DNA of 34,347 bases, from assembly GCA_025928935.1 (NCBI GenBank), contig JAICNB010000032.1, positions 1 to 34,347 of the forward strand. The letters run 5' to 3'. The stretch's first letter is position 1, and every line of letters begins with the position of its first letter. This DNA comes from Acidimicrobiia bacterium (lineage in GTDB: Bacteria > Actinomycetota > Acidimicrobiia > Spongiisociales > ZC4RG35). Under the pieces are notes generated by a model. The model did no database searches, was not told where the DNA came from, and saw only the letters and a list, made by a program, of their open reading frames with translations. Of the stretch, positions 1 through 7,088 are shown in pieces. A program made the translations under genes and the position numbers.

Positions 1-29
1 AGGTCGCTGGCCTTCTCGAGGACGGACAT
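1..29 (-). CDS. Possible start of a gene running off the window
   Basis: On the minus strand an ATG at 29 opens a frame of nine whole codons (reads MSVLEKASD) that runs off the left edge. It lies 15 bases after the dctM stop codon on the same strand, so it could be the next gene of the TRAP cluster. No convincing ribosome binding site precedes it, and nine residues are too few to name a family. Confidence 0.3.
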
Positions 30-44
30 CTCAGTGGATTCTGC

Positions 45-1319
45 TCACAGCCCGATCAGCTCCGGAAGCCAGAGCGTGATGGCGGGCACATAGGTAATGA
101 GAAGCAGCACGACGATCATGGCCGGGAGATAGATGGCTGCACCCTTGAACACGCGCTCGATGGGCAATCCGGTCACCGAGCTGAGCACGAAGATCACGCC
201 CCCCATCGGGGGGGTCAACAGCCCGACCATCAGGTTGAAGATGACGATCGACCCAAGTTGCAGGGGATCCACGCCGAAGGCAATGGCAACCGGCAACAGG
301 ATCGGCGTGACGATGATGAGCGCCGAGGTCGGCTCCAGCAGCATCCCGAGGAACAGAAGCAAGACATTGATGATTAGCAGGAAGACAAAGGGGTTGTCGG
401 TGAGGCCGACGAGCGACTCGGCGACCTTCTGCGGGACCTGCTCGCGGGCCAGGATCCAGCTGAGGAGTGCGGATGCCCCGATGATGATCATGATCTGCGC
501 AGAGATCACCGCGGTGTCGCGGAAGATGATGGCCACATCTCGCAAGCGCAGGGTCCGATATGAGAGCGCCAGCAAGAGCATGTAGAGGGCACCGATGCCG
601 GCCGCTTCGGTTGGAGTGAAGAAGCCGCCGAGGATTCCACCCAAGATGATCAGCGGAGCACCCATCGGCGGGAGTGCGCGGACGACGGCTCGACGCACTT
701 CGCTCCAGTCGTACGAGGTCCCGACCAGCTCGGGCCGTTTTCGGGCCCAGAGATACACGACTACGACCAGGGCCAGAGTCATGAGAAACGCCGGAATCAC
801 CGCGGCTGCGAAGAGCGCTCCTGTCGACACAGCAGCGACAGACGCAAACACCACCGCCGGGATGCTCGGCGGCATAATCGGACTGATGAGCGCAGAGCTG
901 GCGCTCAGCCCGACCGAGAACTCGGCCGGGTAACCCTTCTTGCGCATGTGGTTCACCTCGATCGAGCCCAGGCCCGCCGCATCGGCCAGAGCCGCCCCGC
1001 TCATCCACGAGAACCCGAGACTGACCGCGATGTTCACATACGCCAGGCCGGCCCGCAGGGGCCCGAGCAACAGAACGGCGGCGTCATAGAGGCGATCGGC
1101 GATCTCAGTGCGCGTCGCCACAATCCCGACGAGGATGAAAAGTGGGACGGCGAGAAGTGGCCAGCTGTCGATCCCCTGCATCACGAGCCGGACCGCGAGA
1201 TGCGCAGTATTGCCCTCGGCCAGGAGATATACGACTGACGGACCGAGGATGGCGAACGCCATCGGCACCCGGAGCAGGAAGAGGACGACGATGGCGATGA
1301 GCAGCAGAGTCACGCTCAT
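45..1319 (-). CDS. dctM: TRAP transporter large permease subunit (DctM family)
   Basis: A 424-residue, almost wholly hydrophobic protein of the DctM family, the large membrane subunit that carries the substrate across the inner membrane using a sodium gradient. About 12 membrane segments are visible. Family-typical stretches include RVPMAFAILGPSVVYLL near residue 17, the loop ISPIMPPSIPAVVFASV near 145-162, TPTEAAGIGALYMLLL near 234-249, and GLLTPPMGGVIFVLSSVTGLP near 365-385. The length is normal for DctM. The ATG overlaps the dctQ stop by four bases (ATGA), so the two permease subunits are translationally coupled. The order dctP-dctQ-dctM is the usual one. The substrate cannot be read from this subunit; the neighbours suggest an organic acid. 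Confidence 0.95.
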   Translation of the reverse strand: MSVTLLLIAIVVLFLLRVPMAFAILGPSVVYLLAEGNTAHLAVRLVMQGIDSWPLLAVPLFILVGIVATRTEIADRLYDAAVLLLGPLRAGLAYVNIAVSLGFSWMSGAALADAAGLGSIEVNHMRKKGYPAEFSVGLSASSALISPIMPPSIPAVVFASVAAVSTGALFAAAVIPAFLMTLALVVVVYLWARKRPELVGTSYDWSEVRRAVVRALPPMGAPLIILGGILGGFFTPTEAAGIGALYMLLLALSYRTLRLRDVAIIFRDTAVISAQIMIIIGASALLSWILAREQVPQKVAESLVGLTDNPFVFLLIINVLLLFLGMLLEPTSALIIVTPILLPVAIAFGVDPLQLGSIVIFNLMVGLLTPPMGGVIFVLSSVTGLPIERVFKGAAIYLPAMIVVLLLITYVPAITLWLPELIGL

Positions 1320-1957
1320 GCTGCATCACCACCAGGACCCCGGAGGGCCGGGATGTCCCTGATCACGATCCCGAGAACGGCACGCGTGGCGACGAGGACG
1401 AGGCCAATGAGTGGGACGGCGTTCACAAAGCGCATCGACAGCTCCCCCGCCGGCGTCACCTGATCGATTCCGCCGGTGACCAGGGTGTAGCTGCCGTAGA
1501 TGAGAATCAACGTCGTTGCCAGGATCACCACGTTGACGAACAGCTTGACCACGGCGAGCCAACGATCTTTCGCGACGTAGTCGATGACCTTGATGGCAAT
1601 GTGGAAAGGTGGATAGGCGAGTAGGTAGCCGGCCATGAGGAAGGTGGCCCAAACCATCGAAAGTCGGGCGAGCTCGCCGGTCCATGGTGCCGCCCAGTGC
1701 AGGTATCGCTGTGCCACCTGAGCCAGGACCAGGATGAGGACGAGCACCAACAGCAGTGATCCGACAACCTGCTCGAGCACTCCAAGTGCCTGAAGGATCC
1801 TGCGCATTGTCCCACCTGATGGAAGGAGGGGCTCCTCGTCTTGGAGCGCATCGGTCTCTACGGATTGAAGCTCTTCTTCCAGTGCGTGCAGCTCTTCCGA
1901 TGGGGACTCGTGGGCCGTGTCGTCACCCTCGGAGGGCGGACTTTCGCGTTGGTCCAT
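1316..1957 (-). CDS. dctQ: TRAP transporter small permease subunit (DctQ family)
   Basis: A 213-residue protein whose C-terminal 160 residues are a DctQ subunit: four membrane segments beginning at LEQVVGSLLLVLVLILVLAQ (residue about 60), then PWTGELARLSMVWATFLMAGY. It partners DctM in the TRAP complex. The first 50 residues are an unusual acidic, Glu/Ser-rich tail (GDDTAHESPSEELHALEEEL). A second ATG at 1807 (MRRILQAL) has a better-spaced AGGTGG ribosome site and would give a 163-residue protein of ordinary DctQ length. I keep the long form because its acidic composition looks like real protein, but the start is open. The dctP stop is 108 bases upstream, with a strong hairpin between the genes. 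Confidence 0.9.
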   Translation of the reverse strand: MDQRESPPSEGDDTAHESPSEELHALEEELQSVETDALQDEEPLLPSGGTMRRILQALGVLEQVVGSLLLVLVLILVLAQVAQRYLHWAAPWTGELARLSMVWATFLMAGYLLAYPPFHIAIKVIDYVAKDRWLAVVKLFVNVVILATTLILIYGSYTLVTGGIDQVTPAGELSMRFVNAVPLIGLVLVATRAVLGIVIRDIPALRGPGGDAA

Positions 1958-2029
1958 CAGAAGCTCGTCCTCCGTCCGCGAGCACCAGGTGCCGGCGCTC
2001 GCACGACCATAGGCTCGGTGAGGGAGATT

Positions 2030-2052
2030 GTGCCCGGGCCAAGCCCGGGCAC
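2030..2052 (-). promoter_or_regulatory. Perfect GC hairpin between dctP and dctQ
   Basis: A 10-base arm (2030-2039, GTGCCCGGGC) and its exact complement (2043-2052) are separated by a 3-base loop, 13 bases past the dctP stop. There is no T-run on the minus strand, so it is not a classic terminator. By analogy with binding-protein-dependent operons it may protect the dctP message or partly attenuate readthrough, giving more binding protein than permease. Confidence 0.6.
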
Positions 2053-2065
2053 AGTCAGCTCGGCT

Positions 2066-3169
2066 CTATCCCCCGGCCGTGGACCGGATCGCGTCCAGCA
2101 CGGCGATCTGCTCTTCCGACCAGGCATCCCTCAGGAACGGCTCGGCGCGCTCGCGGAACGCGTCCCGGTCGACGTCCTCGACTATCTCCAAGGACCCGTC
2201 AGTGCGCCAACCCTCGAGGATCTGCTCTTCCGAGTCGGCGGCACACTGTGGCTCCTGGACCATCGCATCGTCGACGCCGGCCTGGAGCGCCGCCTGCTGC
2301 TCCGGGCTGAGCGAGTTCCAAGTGTCGGCGTTGACCACAACGAGGTTCGAGCTGAGTTGGTGGCTCGACAGGCTGATGTAGTCCTGCACCTCGTCCAGGT
2401 TGATCGCGTCGATGTTGACGATCGGATTCTCCTGACCGTCGACTGTCCCCTGCTGTAGGGCCAGATACAGCTCCTCGAAAGCCACCTCGACCGGCTCAGC
2501 ACCCATCGCCTCCGCATTGAGGAGGAACTGAGGCGACGGAGGGAACCGCATCCGAAGCCCCTGAAGGTCATCCGGTGTGCGGATCGCCACGTTGGCCGTG
2601 AACTGTCGAGCCCCGGTGTTCCAGGCACCCAGGATGGCGACTCCCGTGGCTTCCTCGAACCCGGCGGTCAGCTCGTCCGATGCATCGCTGGTGAAGAACC
2701 CGTACAGGTGCTCGCTGTCGTCGAACACGAAGGCACCGTCGACCACGCTCATCGGCTCGTAGACCGCGCTCAAAGCCGAAGCCCCTTGGATGTCGATGTG
2801 GATGTCACCTGAGACAACAGACTCGATACGATCGGCGTCACCGCCGAGCGCGCTGTCACCGAAGATCTCAATGGTCAGGCCGACGTCGGCGGCCTCGGCG
2901 ACCTCCTTGATCACGTCGGCACCACAGACCACCTGGGGCTGGGTGTCCTGGTAGCTGTGGGCCAGGACCAGTTCGACACCCTCGGGCGCTTCCGCCGCGC
3001 TGGTAGTCGACTCGGCCGCCACTGAGGTGGTGGTCGCTTCAGCAGGCGCGGTGGTGGCCTCCTCGGCAGCAGTGGTCGTGGCCTCCTCTCCTCCACCATC
3101 ATCGCCACATGCGACGAGCACCAGGGCCATCGCCAGCGAAAGGGCGAGGATACGGGGACGCTTGGTCAT
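2066..3169 (-). CDS. dctP: TRAP transporter substrate-binding lipoprotein (DctP family)
   Basis: A 367-residue extracytoplasmic solute receptor. The start at 3169 is fixed by a strong GAGGAGGAGAT ribosome site and by the lipoprotein signal MTKRPRILALSLAMALVLVA followed by Cys21; the frame is open upstream but that part is not coding-like. After Cys21 comes a Thr/Ala/Glu-rich linker to about residue 57, then the DctP fold. The family's carboxylate-binding region is recognisable: DLQGLRMRFPPSPQFLLNAE, in which the Arg normally salt-bridges the substrate acid, followed by ELYLALQQGTVDGQENPI. It delivers an organic acid to DctQM. It is transcribed from its own probable promoter (3245-3273), which shares a block with the CoA-transferase promoter. 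Confidence 0.95.
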   Translation of the reverse strand: MTKRPRILALSLAMALVLVACGDDGGGEEATTTAAEEATTAPAEATTTSVAAESTTSAAEAPEGVELVLAHSYQDTQPQVVCGADVIKEVAEAADVGLTIEIFGDSALGGDADRIESVVSGDIHIDIQGASALSAVYEPMSVVDGAFVFDDSEHLYGFFTSDASDELTAGFEEATGVAILGAWNTGARQFTANVAIRTPDDLQGLRMRFPPSPQFLLNAEAMGAEPVEVAFEELYLALQQGTVDGQENPIVNIDAINLDEVQDYISLSSHQLSSNLVVVNADTWNSLSPEQQAALQAGVDDAMVQEPQCAADSEEQILEGWRTDGSLEIVEDVDRDAFRERAEPFLRDAWSEEQIAVLDAIRSTAGG

Positions 3170-3230
3170 ATCTCCTCCTCTTGTCACCCGGGAAACAGCG
3201 CCACAAGTACCTGTGACCGGTTCCACATAG

Positions 3231-3273
3231 TTGGACAGCAACCTAGCATACGGGACGCATTTGACTGGCGCAA
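3231..3273 (-). promoter_or_regulatory. Probable dctP promoter with shared operator block
   Basis: On the minus strand a -35-like TTGCGC (3268-3273) lies 17 bases before a -10-like TATGCT (3245-3250). Transcription would start near 3238, giving a leader of about 70 bases before dctP. The block 3231-3256 matches 6421-6446, at the CoA-transferase start, in 19 of 26 positions, including the whole -10 TATGCT and flanking TTGGACA and GGAC boxes. This extends well beyond a promoter consensus and suggests a common regulator. Confidence 0.6.
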
Positions 3274-3284
3274 CTGACTCTGAG

Positions 3285-4259
3285 CTAGGCAGCGACTCTG
3301 ATCCACGTCTTGCCGGCTGCCGATCCACTTCGATCAAAAGCGGCCTGGGCGTCTTCCAACGGGTACTCGTCGGTGACGATGCGGCCCGGATTGAGCCGGC
3401 CCCCGACGATCGCGTCGATGGCCGCTTCGAAATCGCCTGGGTGGTCATAGGTCAGCGAGCCCTGCAAAGTGAGCTGTTGGCGGACGAGGGTTTGCGTGGT
3501 CAATCCCAGGGGACGGCTGTCGAGACCAAGGCAGAGCAGTGTGGCGCCCGGCTCGGCCCGGTCCAGGGCCACCGCCATCGATGAGGGCCCTCCCGCCGCG
3601 TCGACGATCAGGCTGAAATGTCGACTGTCATCGCTTCCTGCCGAAATCGCGCCCAACTCGGTTGCCAAAGCGACGCGGTCCGGATTGATGTCCTCGACAA
3701 AGGTTGCGACCCCCCGCTCGATCAGAGCAAGCGACATCGTCAGTCCCTGGGCGCCCACACCGACCACGAGGGCGGAATCAGGCATAGGCATCTTCAGTCG
3801 GCGCAGCGCCGCCAGGACTACGGTCGTCGGCTCGACGCAGACGAGGTCAGTGGCGGGCAATTCCGGGATGGCCCATGCGAACTGGCTAGGGACAACGAGT
3901 CTCTCGGCCAGGGCACCAGGCCGGTTCATGCCGACCGATTGTCTTCCTGCACAGGCCGAGGTGAGCCCACGGCTGCATCGCTCGCAGGCAAGACACGCCA
4001 CGTTTGGTTCCACCACCACGGCCTGACCGATTCGATCGGGCGGCACACCCGGACCCAGGGCTACGACGACACCGAAGACCTCATGCCCCATGATCCAGGG
4101 ATAAGCGGGAGGCTTCCACCGTCCGCTGAAGACACTCAGATCCGAACCGCACAGACCGACACCACCAACGGAAATCATCACCTCCCGCGGCCCCGGCTCG
4201 GGGTCGGGGACGTCGTCGATCACGATTGTGTTCGGCTCGACCAACAGGGCGGCTTTCAC
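3285..4259 (-). CDS. Zinc-dependent medium-chain alcohol dehydrogenase
   Basis: A 324-residue MDR-family dehydrogenase. The catalytic zinc site is present as GLCGSD (about residue 35-40) and GHEVFGVV (about 59-66). The structural zinc loop is CLACERCSRGLTSAC, with the normal C-x2-C-x2-C-x7-C spacing. The Rossmann motif VGVGAQGLTMSLAL is followed by VEDINPDR, whose acidic residue at the end of the second strand favours NAD over NADP. It probably oxidises a secondary alcohol or polyol-type intermediate. The start overlaps the stop of the upstream phosphotriesterase-like gene by four bases (ATGA), so the two steps are made together. It is slightly shorter than the usual 340 residues, with no missing motif. 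The substrate is unknown. Confidence 0.93.
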   Translation of the reverse strand: MKAALLVEPNTIVIDDVPDPEPGPREVMISVGGVGLCGSDLSVFSGRWKPPAYPWIMGHEVFGVVVALGPGVPPDRIGQAVVVEPNVACLACERCSRGLTSACAGRQSVGMNRPGALAERLVVPSQFAWAIPELPATDLVCVEPTTVVLAALRRLKMPMPDSALVVGVGAQGLTMSLALIERGVATFVEDINPDRVALATELGAISAGSDDSRHFSLIVDAAGGPSSMAVALDRAEPGATLLCLGLDSRPLGLTTQTLVRQQLTLQGSLTYDHPGDFEAAIDAIVGGRLNPGRIVTDEYPLEDAQAAFDRSGSAAGKTWIRVAA

Positions 4260-5227
4260 GCGGCCCCCTCCAGCAGACGTCGTGGATTGCTCACCATCAT
4301 CTGGCTGATCGAGCCCGGCGACACACCAGCATCGACGAGCATTGGGAGGATGCGCTTCGAAATGGTGTCCATTCGCCAGTGCGGTGCCGAGGCGACGCGC
4401 CAGGATGGCGGGGTGATGTGACTGTAGAAAGCCGCATCATGGGAGAGAACCATGCGGTCTGCGTAACCGAGCTCGAGGAGGGCCAGGAGTGTTCGGACTC
4501 TCCGTTCGTCGGGGAGAACGTGCTCCATCCCGAATCGATCCATGCCGATGGTCGACCCGTTGTCCATCAACGCTCGGAGGTAGTCGAGGTCTTCGCTATC
4601 GCCTGAGTGGCCAATGATGATTCGCTCCGCCGCGACGCCCAGCTTTCCGAGGAATGCCTGCTGCTCCAAGCCGTTGCGTGACAACGGATGGGAATGGGTC
4701 GTGATTGGCGCCCCGGTCTCATGATGGGCATAGGCGGCGGCTGACATCACGCGGGCGACGTCCGGTGTGACACCCTCTTCATCGGTCACCACTTTCAGCA
4801 TCCCGGCCCTTACCTTCCCGTCGCCGATTCCTTCACGGATGTCACGGATGAATAGCCCGGCGAGAGGGTCTGCCACGTCGATCACTCGCCCGGGCCCATG
4901 GAAATGAAAATATCGAGGCAGGACGTTGGGCGTATACCAACCGGTCGCGGCGATGAGATTGATGGGGACACGTTCCGCCACCCGGGCCACTAGTCGCACG
5001 TCACGGCCCAACCCTGGGACTGTGAGGTCGACCACCGTCCGGACCCCCAGCTCGTAGAGCTTCGTGAGACCATGGACGGCGGCCTCGATTAGGCCGTTGG
5101 GTTCCCACTCACCGTCCGGATCGTTGACCTCGAGCTCTGGGTTGCGCACGAACACGTGCTCGTGGATCAGTGTCACCCCGAGCCGATCTGGGCTGACCGG
5201 CCCTCGAAATGTCTCAATCGATCCCAC
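4256..5227 (-). CDS. Phosphotriesterase-like metallohydrolase (PHP/lactonase type)
   Basis: About 323 residues of the amidohydrolase superfamily, phosphotriesterase-homology branch. All binuclear metal ligands are visible: HEH near residue 22-24 (GVTLIHEHVFV), the carbamylated-lysine segment AGMLKVVTDEEG, THSHP, IIGHSGDSED and LSHDA. Many members hydrolyse lactones or related esters rather than phosphotriesters. The start is uncertain: the frame stays open well into the upstream gene with no ATG. The GTG at 5227 (reads VGSIETFRGP) fits the family N-terminus and has an AGG eight bases or so upstream; a GTG at 5257 is an alternative. It overlaps the CoA-transferase stop by 14 bases and the dehydrogenase start by 4, so it sits inside a tight three-gene unit. 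Confidence 0.9.
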   Translation of the reverse strand: MGSIETFRGPVSPDRLGVTLIHEHVFVRNPELEVNDPDGEWEPNGLIEAAVHGLTKLYELGVRTVVDLTVPGLGRDVRLVARVAERVPINLIAATGWYTPNVLPRYFHFHGPGRVIDVADPLAGLFIRDIREGIGDGKVRAGMLKVVTDEEGVTPDVARVMSAAAYAHHETGAPITTHSHPLSRNGLEQQAFLGKLGVAAERIIIGHSGDSEDLDYLRALMDNGSTIGMDRFGMEHVLPDERRVRTLLALLELGYADRMVLSHDAAFYSHITPPSWRVASAPHWRMDTISKRILPMLVDAGVSPGSISQMMVSNPRRLLEGAA

Positions 5228-6428
5228 GCCGACCGACCTGGCCCCCTTGGTCGACACGGCCACGAATCCGCTCTGTGGCTTCACCCAGCTGCTGTGCGAG
5301 CGGGGGCACCACTCCGGGTGTGCGCGACAATTTCGGAATGACTCCGGGCACCAACAGCGGTCGGTCGAGCCGGGCATCCTCCACTTCGACGATTGCATCG
5401 CGTGCCAGGAATTGCGGGTCCAACACGATGTCCGCGATGCTGTTGATTCGGCTGACCGGCAGCTGCTGAGCTCGCAACATCTCCACTATCTCGTCGGCGG
5501 TCCGCGTCTCCGTCCAGGCTGCAATGGCTTCATCGAGTTCAACGACGCGTGCCACCCTGCCAGTGTTGGTGGCCAAGGACGGGTCGGAGGCGAGATCCTC
5601 TCTTCCCACGATCTGGCACAGCTTCCGAAAGAGGCCTGTCGTGTTTGCAGCGATGCAGACCAGCGCTCCATCTGCAGTGGGATACGCGTTGGTCGGGGCG
5701 GAGTTGTGGGCGATATTTCCTGTCCTGTGGCGGATCGCCCCGTGGTAGGAGAATTCAGGCAGGATCCCTTCCAGCATGGAGAAGGTCGATTCGGTCAAAG
5801 CCACGTCCACTACCTGGCCGCGTCCCGATGTCTCTCGTTCATGAAGCGCCGTCAGCGCCCCCATCACGGCGTACAACGATGCGATGGAATCACCAAGGCT
5901 GAGACCCACCCGTGTCGGAGGCCGATCCGGCTCGCCGGTGACGTGCCTCAAGCCGCCGGCGGCCTCTGCGATCGTGCCGAATGCCGGCTGGTCACTCAAC
6001 GGGCCTGATTGGCCGTAACCCGAGATGCGAACCACGATCAACCCTGGATTGGCCTCCATCAGGTCGTGGGGATCGAGATTCCATTTTTCGAGACGCCCGG
6101 GGCGGAAGTTCTCGATGAGCACGTCGCTCTCGATCGCCAGCTCCCGTACGAAGGACTGGTCTGCCGGATCGTGGAGATCGGCCGTGACAGAGAGCTTTCC
6201 GCGCGACTGGATGAGATGCCAGAGTGAATCGGTGCTGTCCGACGTCATCCCCCAGCTGCGTAGAGGGTCGCCACGGTCCGGATGCTCGACCTTTATGACC
6301 TCGGCGCCGAAGTCGGCGAACAATCGACCGGCGAAAGGCCCAGCGATCAGCGTCCCCAGCTCGAGGACGCGCAAGTCCGAGAGTGGACCGCCACCTGCTA
6401 CCCGGATGCGTCCCGCATTGTTGGACAT
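5214..6428 (-). CDS. CaiB/BaiF (family III) CoA-transferase
   Basis: A 404-residue formyl-CoA transferase/CaiB-type enzyme that moves CoA between carboxylic acids. Family-typical parts are PLSDLRVLELGTLIAGPFA near the N-terminus, GAEVIKVEHPDRGDPLRSWG, LIENFRPGRLEKW, GLIVVRISGYGQSGP, and the segment GRGQVVDVALTES where the catalytic acidic residue lies. The ATG at 6428 is chosen because a good promoter ends six bases before it, implying a leaderless message; a TTG at 6464 touches its only possible ribosome site and is less likely. It is the first gene of the minus-strand cluster and probably activates a dicarboxylic or hydroxy acid as a CoA ester. Substrate unknown. Confidence 0.93.
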   Translation of the reverse strand: MSNNAGRIRVAGGGPLSDLRVLELGTLIAGPFAGRLFADFGAEVIKVEHPDRGDPLRSWGMTSDSTDSLWHLIQSRGKLSVTADLHDPADQSFVRELAIESDVLIENFRPGRLEKWNLDPHDLMEANPGLIVVRISGYGQSGPLSDQPAFGTIAEAAGGLRHVTGEPDRPPTRVGLSLGDSIASLYAVMGALTALHERETSGRGQVVDVALTESTFSMLEGILPEFSYHGAIRHRTGNIAHNSAPTNAYPTADGALVCIAANTTGLFRKLCQIVGREDLASDPSLATNTGRVARVVELDEAIAAWTETRTADEIVEMLRAQQLPVSRINSIADIVLDPQFLARDAIVEVEDARLDRPLLVPGVIPKLSRTPGVVPPLAQQLGEATERIRGRVDQGGQVGRRGID

Positions 6429-6464
6429 GAGTCCAGCATATTGGACGGCCTTCGGTGCGGTCAA
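6421..6464 (-). promoter_or_regulatory. Probable leaderless promoter and operator of the CoA-transferase gene
   Basis: On the minus strand TTGACC (6459-6464) is followed after 18 bases by TATGCT (6435-6440), then six bases and the ATG. Start of transcription would fall at or next to the A of the ATG. Overlapping inverted repeats are present: GTCCA (6431-6435) with TGGAC (6442-6446), and TGGAC (6422-6426) with GTCCA (6431-6435). The block 6421-6446 recurs at 3231-3256 before dctP. Confidence 0.6.
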
Positions 6465-6494: not shown

Positions 6495-7088
6495 TCAGAG
6501 CATGTCGCCGCGAGACTGCTCGGCCCGCGAGGCGCCGATCGCAGTCGTCACCTTCTTCTCTTCCTCGGGTGGAGGGAGGACCGCCGGCATCCCCAGTGAT
6601 TCGATCCACAGCTCACGGGCCCAGCCCATGGTGTGGTAGAGATGCATGTCCTCTTGTTCCTCGACCTGCTCGTAGGCGTCGGTCAGCACCGTGCGTCGCT
6701 CACCGGTCGCCTTCTCGGCGACCCTGCCGATCAGCTCCCAATTGGCATGGTCTTTGGTCTCCGCCTCGACGACGCACTCGGCCGCCACCAGCTCGGCCGT
6801 CGTCGGGTTCCCCGATTCGGAGGCCATCTCCATGGCCTTGAGGAGTGACTGACCCTTGTGCCGAACTACCTGTCGACCCGGCGTCTCGGTCGTTGGGTCC
6901 AGGCCCAGTTGGGAGAAGACGTCTTCCACGATGCGTACGTGGTCCTCGGTCTCGGAGAGATACTTCTCCCATTCCTCCCGAAGGTCCTCGTTGACCGCAC
7001 AGCTGATCGCCTTCTCATAGATCTTCACACCACCTAGCTCGGTCTCCAACGCCTGATACAACAGCTCGTCGACTTGGGCTTCCTTCAT
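6495..7088 (-). CDS. Ferritin-like diiron-carboxylate protein
   Basis: A 197-residue, largely helical protein with paired Glu/His motifs of a ferritin-like four-helix bundle: ALETELGGVKIYEKA (residues about 13-27), SETEDHVRIVEDVF (about 45-58), ECVVEAETKDHANWELI (about 104-120) and EQVEEQEDMHLYH (about 142-154). The Glu and ExxH residues on four helices fit a non-haem diiron or manganese site, so an iron-oxidising or stress role is likely. The C-terminal 40 residues are not part of the bundle. It stands alone, 66 bases from the divergent-looking CoA-transferase promoter region and about 80 bases from the STAS gene on the same strand. I cannot assign a specific named family. Confidence 0.8.
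   Translation of the reverse strand: MKEAQVDELLYQALETELGGVKIYEKAISCAVNEDLREEWEKYLSETEDHVRIVEDVFSQLGLDPTTETPGRQVVRHKGQSLLKAMEMASESGNPTTAELVAAECVVEAETKDHANWELIGRVAEKATGERRTVLTDAYEQVEEQEDMHLYHTMGWARELWIESLGMPAVLPPPEEEKKVTTAIGASRAEQSRGDML

Follow-up and report, generated by a model that had tools for sequence, protein, structure and literature searches.

The window, i.e. the whole stretch of DNA that was analysed (34,347 nucleotides), is the entire contig C51. It carries a gene cluster which reads leftwards from a CoA-transferase gene through hydrolase, dehydrogenase, dctP, dctQ and dctM genes to the start of an iclR gene. The genes of the cluster are:

5214-6428, minus strand: CaiB-type CoA-transferase, ATG at 6428
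4256-5248, minus strand: phosphotriesterase-family hydrolase, exact start uncertain
3285-4259, minus strand: zinc-type alcohol/sugar dehydrogenase
2066-3169, minus strand: dctP, TRAP solute-binding protein
1316-1957, minus strand: dctQ, TRAP small permease
45-1319, minus strand: dctM, TRAP large permease
1-29, minus strand: first nine codons of iclR (MSVLEKASD), after dctM and cut by the contig end; the start VSVLQKASD in genome G137 matches

The catabolic set comprises window positions 45-6428 together with positions 9220-14083 of L110, a stretch of contig C44 of the same genome (G000:C44), and includes a SauS-like acylating aldehyde dehydrogenase and a TIM-barrel isomerase. On C44 the citryl-CoA-lyase-like gene is followed by the TPP-enzyme, acylating-aldehyde-dehydrogenase and TIM-barrel genes. 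A ferritin-like DUF892-type protein, probably the end of an unrelated unit, is encoded on the same strand at 6495-7088, immediately upstream of the CoA-transferase promoter.

A preliminary description of this DNA reported a repeat at 3231-3256 and 6421-6446, both copies having the same orientation, 19 of 26 identical positions and a common TATGCT. On recheck the agreement, the coordinates, the orientation and the common hexamer (3250-3245 and 6440-6435, minus strand) were all exact. The shared element is longer than 26 bases, with 28 of 38 positions identical between 3220-3257 and 6410-6447 on the minus strand. About 840 same-strand 26-mer pairs with at least 19/26 identity are expected in the window (binomial estimate from composition alone), so that 19/26 is weak as a sole statistic. 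A 28/38 match to the dctP segment is expected about 0.0002 times anywhere in the window and, over all pairs in the window, about 1.9 pairs as good as 28/38 are expected. The case therefore rests on conservation and further copies; stronger evidence than the pairwise identity comes from G137, where the element is conserved, and from the window genome, which has a third copy. The candidate elements and promoters are:

3219-3257, minus strand: candidate dctP operator/promoter element, contains 3231-3256, kept in G137 (L102 3511-3550)
3245-3273, minus strand: possible dctP promoter, -35 TTGCGC at 3273-3268, 17-base spacer, -10 TATGCT at 3250-3245
6409-6447, minus strand: candidate CoA-transferase operator/promoter element, contains 6421-6446, kept in G137 (L102 6696-6735)
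6435-6464, minus strand: likely CoA-transferase promoter, -35 TTGACC at 6464-6459, 18-base spacer, -10 TATGCT at 6440-6435

The outer parts of the repeat, TTGGACA and GGAC, had been proposed as two half-sites around the -10. The sites are better described by TCCA and TGGA boxes that alternate at intervals of about 10 bp and extend about 11 bases further downstream than the 26-base block. The boxes are TCCC, TAGG, TCCA and TGGA in the dctP element and TCCA, TGGA, TCCA and CGGG in the CoA-transferase element, both with a 10-bp period. The core of the dctP element is TGTCCAACTATGTGGAACC (3237-3219); that of the CoA-transferase element is TGTCCAACAATGCGGGACG (6427-6409) and overlaps the start codon. 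The sequence conservation at the CoA-transferase start may be partly coding (MSNNA).

The two promoters differ in their relation to the start codon. With the CoA-transferase start taken as ATG 6428, six bases past the -10 TATGCT, the sequence suggests that this transcript is probably leaderless. In leaderless actinobacterial promoters (e.g. PMC3898074), TANNNT is found about 6-7 bases before the start codon. This is the arrangement at the CoA-transferase gene here (TATGCT, six bases, ATG) and in G137 (TAATCT, seven bases, ATG), unlike that of dctP, where the ATG is preceded by a Shine-Dalgarno-like AGGAGGAG and the transcript would have a leader of about 70 bases. TAGGTT (3245-3240) is an alternative -10 of dctP, and it is this hexamer that G137 retains. 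The possibility that a short peptide gene covers the dctP copy was rejected, as its frame is not conserved in G137.

G137, which belongs to the same family, is the one other genome found to have the cluster, with the same gene order from the CoA-transferase to iclR, and the cluster is absent from both other genomes of the genus that were compared. The downstream part of the motif, TGTCCARYWATGYGGRAYS, is kept at both G137 promoters. This pattern was written from the four sites of the window and G137, so its fit there is a description and no test. The dctP intergenic alignment of the window genome and G137 reaches a score of 62, compared with a shuffle maximum of 50. At the G137 dctP promoter TAGGTT and TGTCCA..TATGTGGRA are kept and CATGGT stands in place of TATGCT; the G137 CoA-transferase promoter has TTGACC and TAATCT at the corresponding places. 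The same register of the repeat relative to an identical -10, as described earlier, thus holds in the window genome only.

A third copy of the motif, CCGGACTATGAGTCCAATATGTGGAACGAGGTCCAATGACC, is found in the C44 interval that separates iclR from the citryl-CoA-lyase-like gene. It has the same boxes with a centre that is one base shorter, and it lies downstream of TTGACA-N18-TAGCGT; the spacing differs by one base among the sites. A profile that was built without the C44 copy ranked this copy first in L110 (E 0.021, filters off); a 40-column profile missed it under default filters and put it in first place only once the filters were off. The ladder score, too, has its maxima at these promoters in the window, in L110 and in L102, the corresponding stretch of G137. 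After the C44 copy had been seen, we composed the widened pattern GTCCAN{1,3}ATGYGGRA, which has four matches in the window genome, three at these promoters and the fourth within an aldolase-like reading frame, and two in G137, both at cluster promoters. Six related control genomes have one to six matches each. A TCCA/TGGA ladder with three mismatches has 98 matches genome-wide and was rejected as a genome-wide signature for being too common. A third site before the citryl-CoA-lyase-like gene of G137 was looked for and is absent; that gene overlaps the end of iclR, so there is no separate promoter and no third site is expected.

The refined motif is not widespread and is kept in the sole orthologous cluster found, so that neither of the two results which the preliminary description named as refuting its interpretation was obtained. 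The element picked out in the preliminary description is a real control element. Its proposed role, that of a regulator site which ties uptake through dctP to catabolism through the CoA-transferase, is supported by the conservation and the third copy; the half-site layout and the missing regulator gene that went with it do not hold.

Two similar core promoters, using the same sigma factor and the same -10 and surrounded by chance similarity, would also produce a repeat of this kind. The common register of TATGCT, the plausible -35 hexamers TTGCGC and TTGACC and the frequency of 19/26 matches by chance fit this explanation, which we nevertheless regard as improbable, since most of what is conserved in G137 lies downstream of the -10, neither G137 promoter has TATGCT itself and the third copy follows a different promoter.

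The visible cluster had been described as lacking a regulator gene. An IclR-family gene starts at window positions 29-1, where the minus strand after dctM reads ATGTCCGTCCTCGAGAAGGCCAGCGAC, encoding MSVLEKASD. The rest of an IclR gene is found at the right end of C44 (G000:C44:30177-30827, L110 14178-14828) and begins with GMPKSSTHRLL; over 99 residues this part shares 81% identity with the G137 protein. An overlap between the ends of C51 and C44 was looked for and none was found. Because the start of iclR follows dctM on C51 and the remainder lies at the end of C44, the two ends very probably adjoin inside iclR with a gap of about 65 bases, which would link iclR across both contigs. The IclR-family gene of G137 likewise follows dctM. 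It is also broken by contig ends, and its pieces (C130:3-299 and C218:14875-15333) overlap in sequence and look like one gene.

Relatives of iclR at E <= 1e-25 occur in two of the 137 genomes of the order, which are exactly the two with the cluster. The C-terminal domain of the regulator matches PF01614 (E 5e-36). HTH_IclR is only partly present in the window genome, where the contig end truncates the gene, and the G137 copy has the full HTH stretch. The closest NCBIfam model is TIGR02431 (PcaR/PcaU/PobR), with 103.8 bits on the 216 available residues; the score, from a sequence without about 30 N-terminal residues, lies far below the cut-off of 284.75 and does not place the protein in the PcaR/PcaU/PobR subfamily.

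The binding sites of group 1 IclR regulators have been described as GKTYCRYW3-4RYGRAMC, with a subgroup NGTYCRAW4TYGRACN, and comprise alternating sites of three boxes as well as tandem sites at distances of 18-22 bp (PMC8222616). This consensus is independent of the present data. With its odd-length form the best-ranked place is the dctP site in the 34-kb window and the C44 site in L110 (14.8 kb); in L102 (20 kb of G137) two CoA-transferase sites at a distance of 21 bp share the first rank. With the NGT-12 form the CoA-transferase site is first in the window and in L102 and the C44 site is first in L110. With the even-length form the dctP site is tied with two other places in the window, and another place is first in L110. 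These promoters thus head most of the scans of the three stretches, alone or tied, and the even-length form lacks specificity in the window and L110. The margins in the window are one position or a tie. The matches are imperfect, with 15/17 positions for the dctP, C44 and G137 CoA-transferase sites and 14/16 for the CoA-transferase site. As in group 1 operators, the boxes alternate and tandem centres are about 20-21 bp apart; unlike them, odd and even spacings are both present here and four boxes can be drawn instead of two or three. An extra direct half-site has been described for PcaU and PobR (PMC8222616). The cluster shares with the PcaR/PcaU/PobR systems the closest NCBIfam model of its regulator, and differs from them in not being a beta-ketoadipate pathway.

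Of the features of an IclR regulon, domain content, linkage to the regulated genes and operators fitting the consensus are present here. On these sequence comparisons the block is likely to belong to a tandem operator to which the IclR-family regulator encoded in the cluster would bind.

A different protein might read the same site, for example a regulator encoded far away or the GntR/FCD protein encoded beside the G137 cluster. The gene order differs here: the TPP-enzyme, aldehyde-dehydrogenase and isomerase genes of G137 are located upstream of the CoA-transferase gene, by the GntR/FCD gene (L102 1-11693); in the window genome they come after iclR and the citryl-CoA-lyase-like gene, the latter with a promoter gap and a motif copy of its own. 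While the position of the GntR/FCD gene beside the TPP-enzyme gene and the indirect pairing of IclR with the site leave some room for another regulator, we consider this unlikely: no GntR relative was found at E <= 0.001 in the window genome, and an operon under GntR/FCD control would require one in both motif-bearing genomes. Moreover, neither the GntR nor the TPP promoter of G137 has a copy of the pattern, whereas iclR co-occurs with and is linked to the cluster in both genomes and the site fits the published IclR consensus.

A duplication of the CoA-transferase start region into the dctP promoter, of which the similarity would be a relic, with coding constraint rather than a regulator preserving the CoA-transferase copy, is very improbable: CTG TCC AAC TAT GTG GAA at dctP does align with ATG TCC AAC AAT GCG GGA at the CoA-transferase gene in the same register, but the dctP copy is noncoding and yet kept in G137, where the corresponding frame stops after 11 codons, its flanks in that intergenic region are poorly conserved, and the C44 copy precedes a different gene with another phase and spacing.

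For the tandem IclR operator we propose the following mechanism. The TCCA/TGGA boxes alternate about every 10 bp over the -10, the transcription start and, at the CoA-transferase gene, the start codon. A bound IclR dimer or tetramer would stop RNA polymerase at three promoters: that of dctP-dctQ-dctM-iclR, that of the CoA-transferase gene with the hydrolase and dehydrogenase genes, and a third one serving the citryl-CoA-lyase-like, TPP-enzyme and aldehyde-dehydrogenase genes. IclR would be released by an inducer, presumably the substrate itself or a compound formed from it. As iclR follows dctM, the regulator would also control its own expression. Through the two window sites the first catabolic genes would be coupled to uptake, with the remaining genes added by the C44 site.

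The boxes cover the -10, the start and, at the CoA-transferase gene, the first codons, where a bound protein would usually prevent transcription; repression that is lifted by a pathway compound therefore appears likeliest. PcaU and PobR are activators, unlike the regulator suggested by the position of the site here. We infer that this IclR protein reads and binds the site, represses rather than activates, and responds to an inducer.

Judged by its sequence, the element is most likely a fairly ordinary IclR-type operator pair of a common kind of regulator, and it is the pathway under this control which looks unusual. A more tentative reading, to which we give somewhat less than even weight, is that IclR and its operators may control an undescribed catabolic pathway that is rare in the class and has a leaderless catabolic promoter, the start codon being contained within the operator. 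The pathway would in this case consist of the CaiB-type CoA-transferase, the phosphotriesterase-like hydrolase, the dehydrogenase, the TPP enzyme, the SauS-like acylating aldehyde dehydrogenase, the citryl-CoA-lyase-like protein and TRAP uptake. With the IclR operator as the main reading, an apparently orphan control element gains a named candidate regulator, and an anonymous repeat becomes a testable local circuit of three operators, one candidate regulator and three transcription units, which look like they serve one pathway. Inducer screening with the candidate regulator would offer a handle on the substrate of this rare gene cluster.

Syntenic close copies of the hydrolase and aldehyde dehydrogenase genes are found in only two of the 395 genomes of the class, the window genome and G137, so the distribution is patchy. 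The CoA-transferase search of genome contigs gave no close ortholog (best 56%), and the neighbourhoods of its matches are without the cluster. None of the phosphotriesterase matches across the class is syntenic except that of G137. The aldehyde dehydrogenase search at phylum level detected one partial relative of the cluster, in G706, whose IclR-type genes were not detected as relatives of the cluster iclR. In this more distant actinobacterial relative (L165, G706:C1:52000-71999), TPP enzyme, citryl-CoA-lyase-like, acylating aldehyde dehydrogenase and TRAP genes are found. A large quinoprotein-like dehydrogenase, a QuiC-like and a shikimate-dehydrogenase-like gene are also part of the G706 locus, and these neighbours possibly hint at the kind of substrate.
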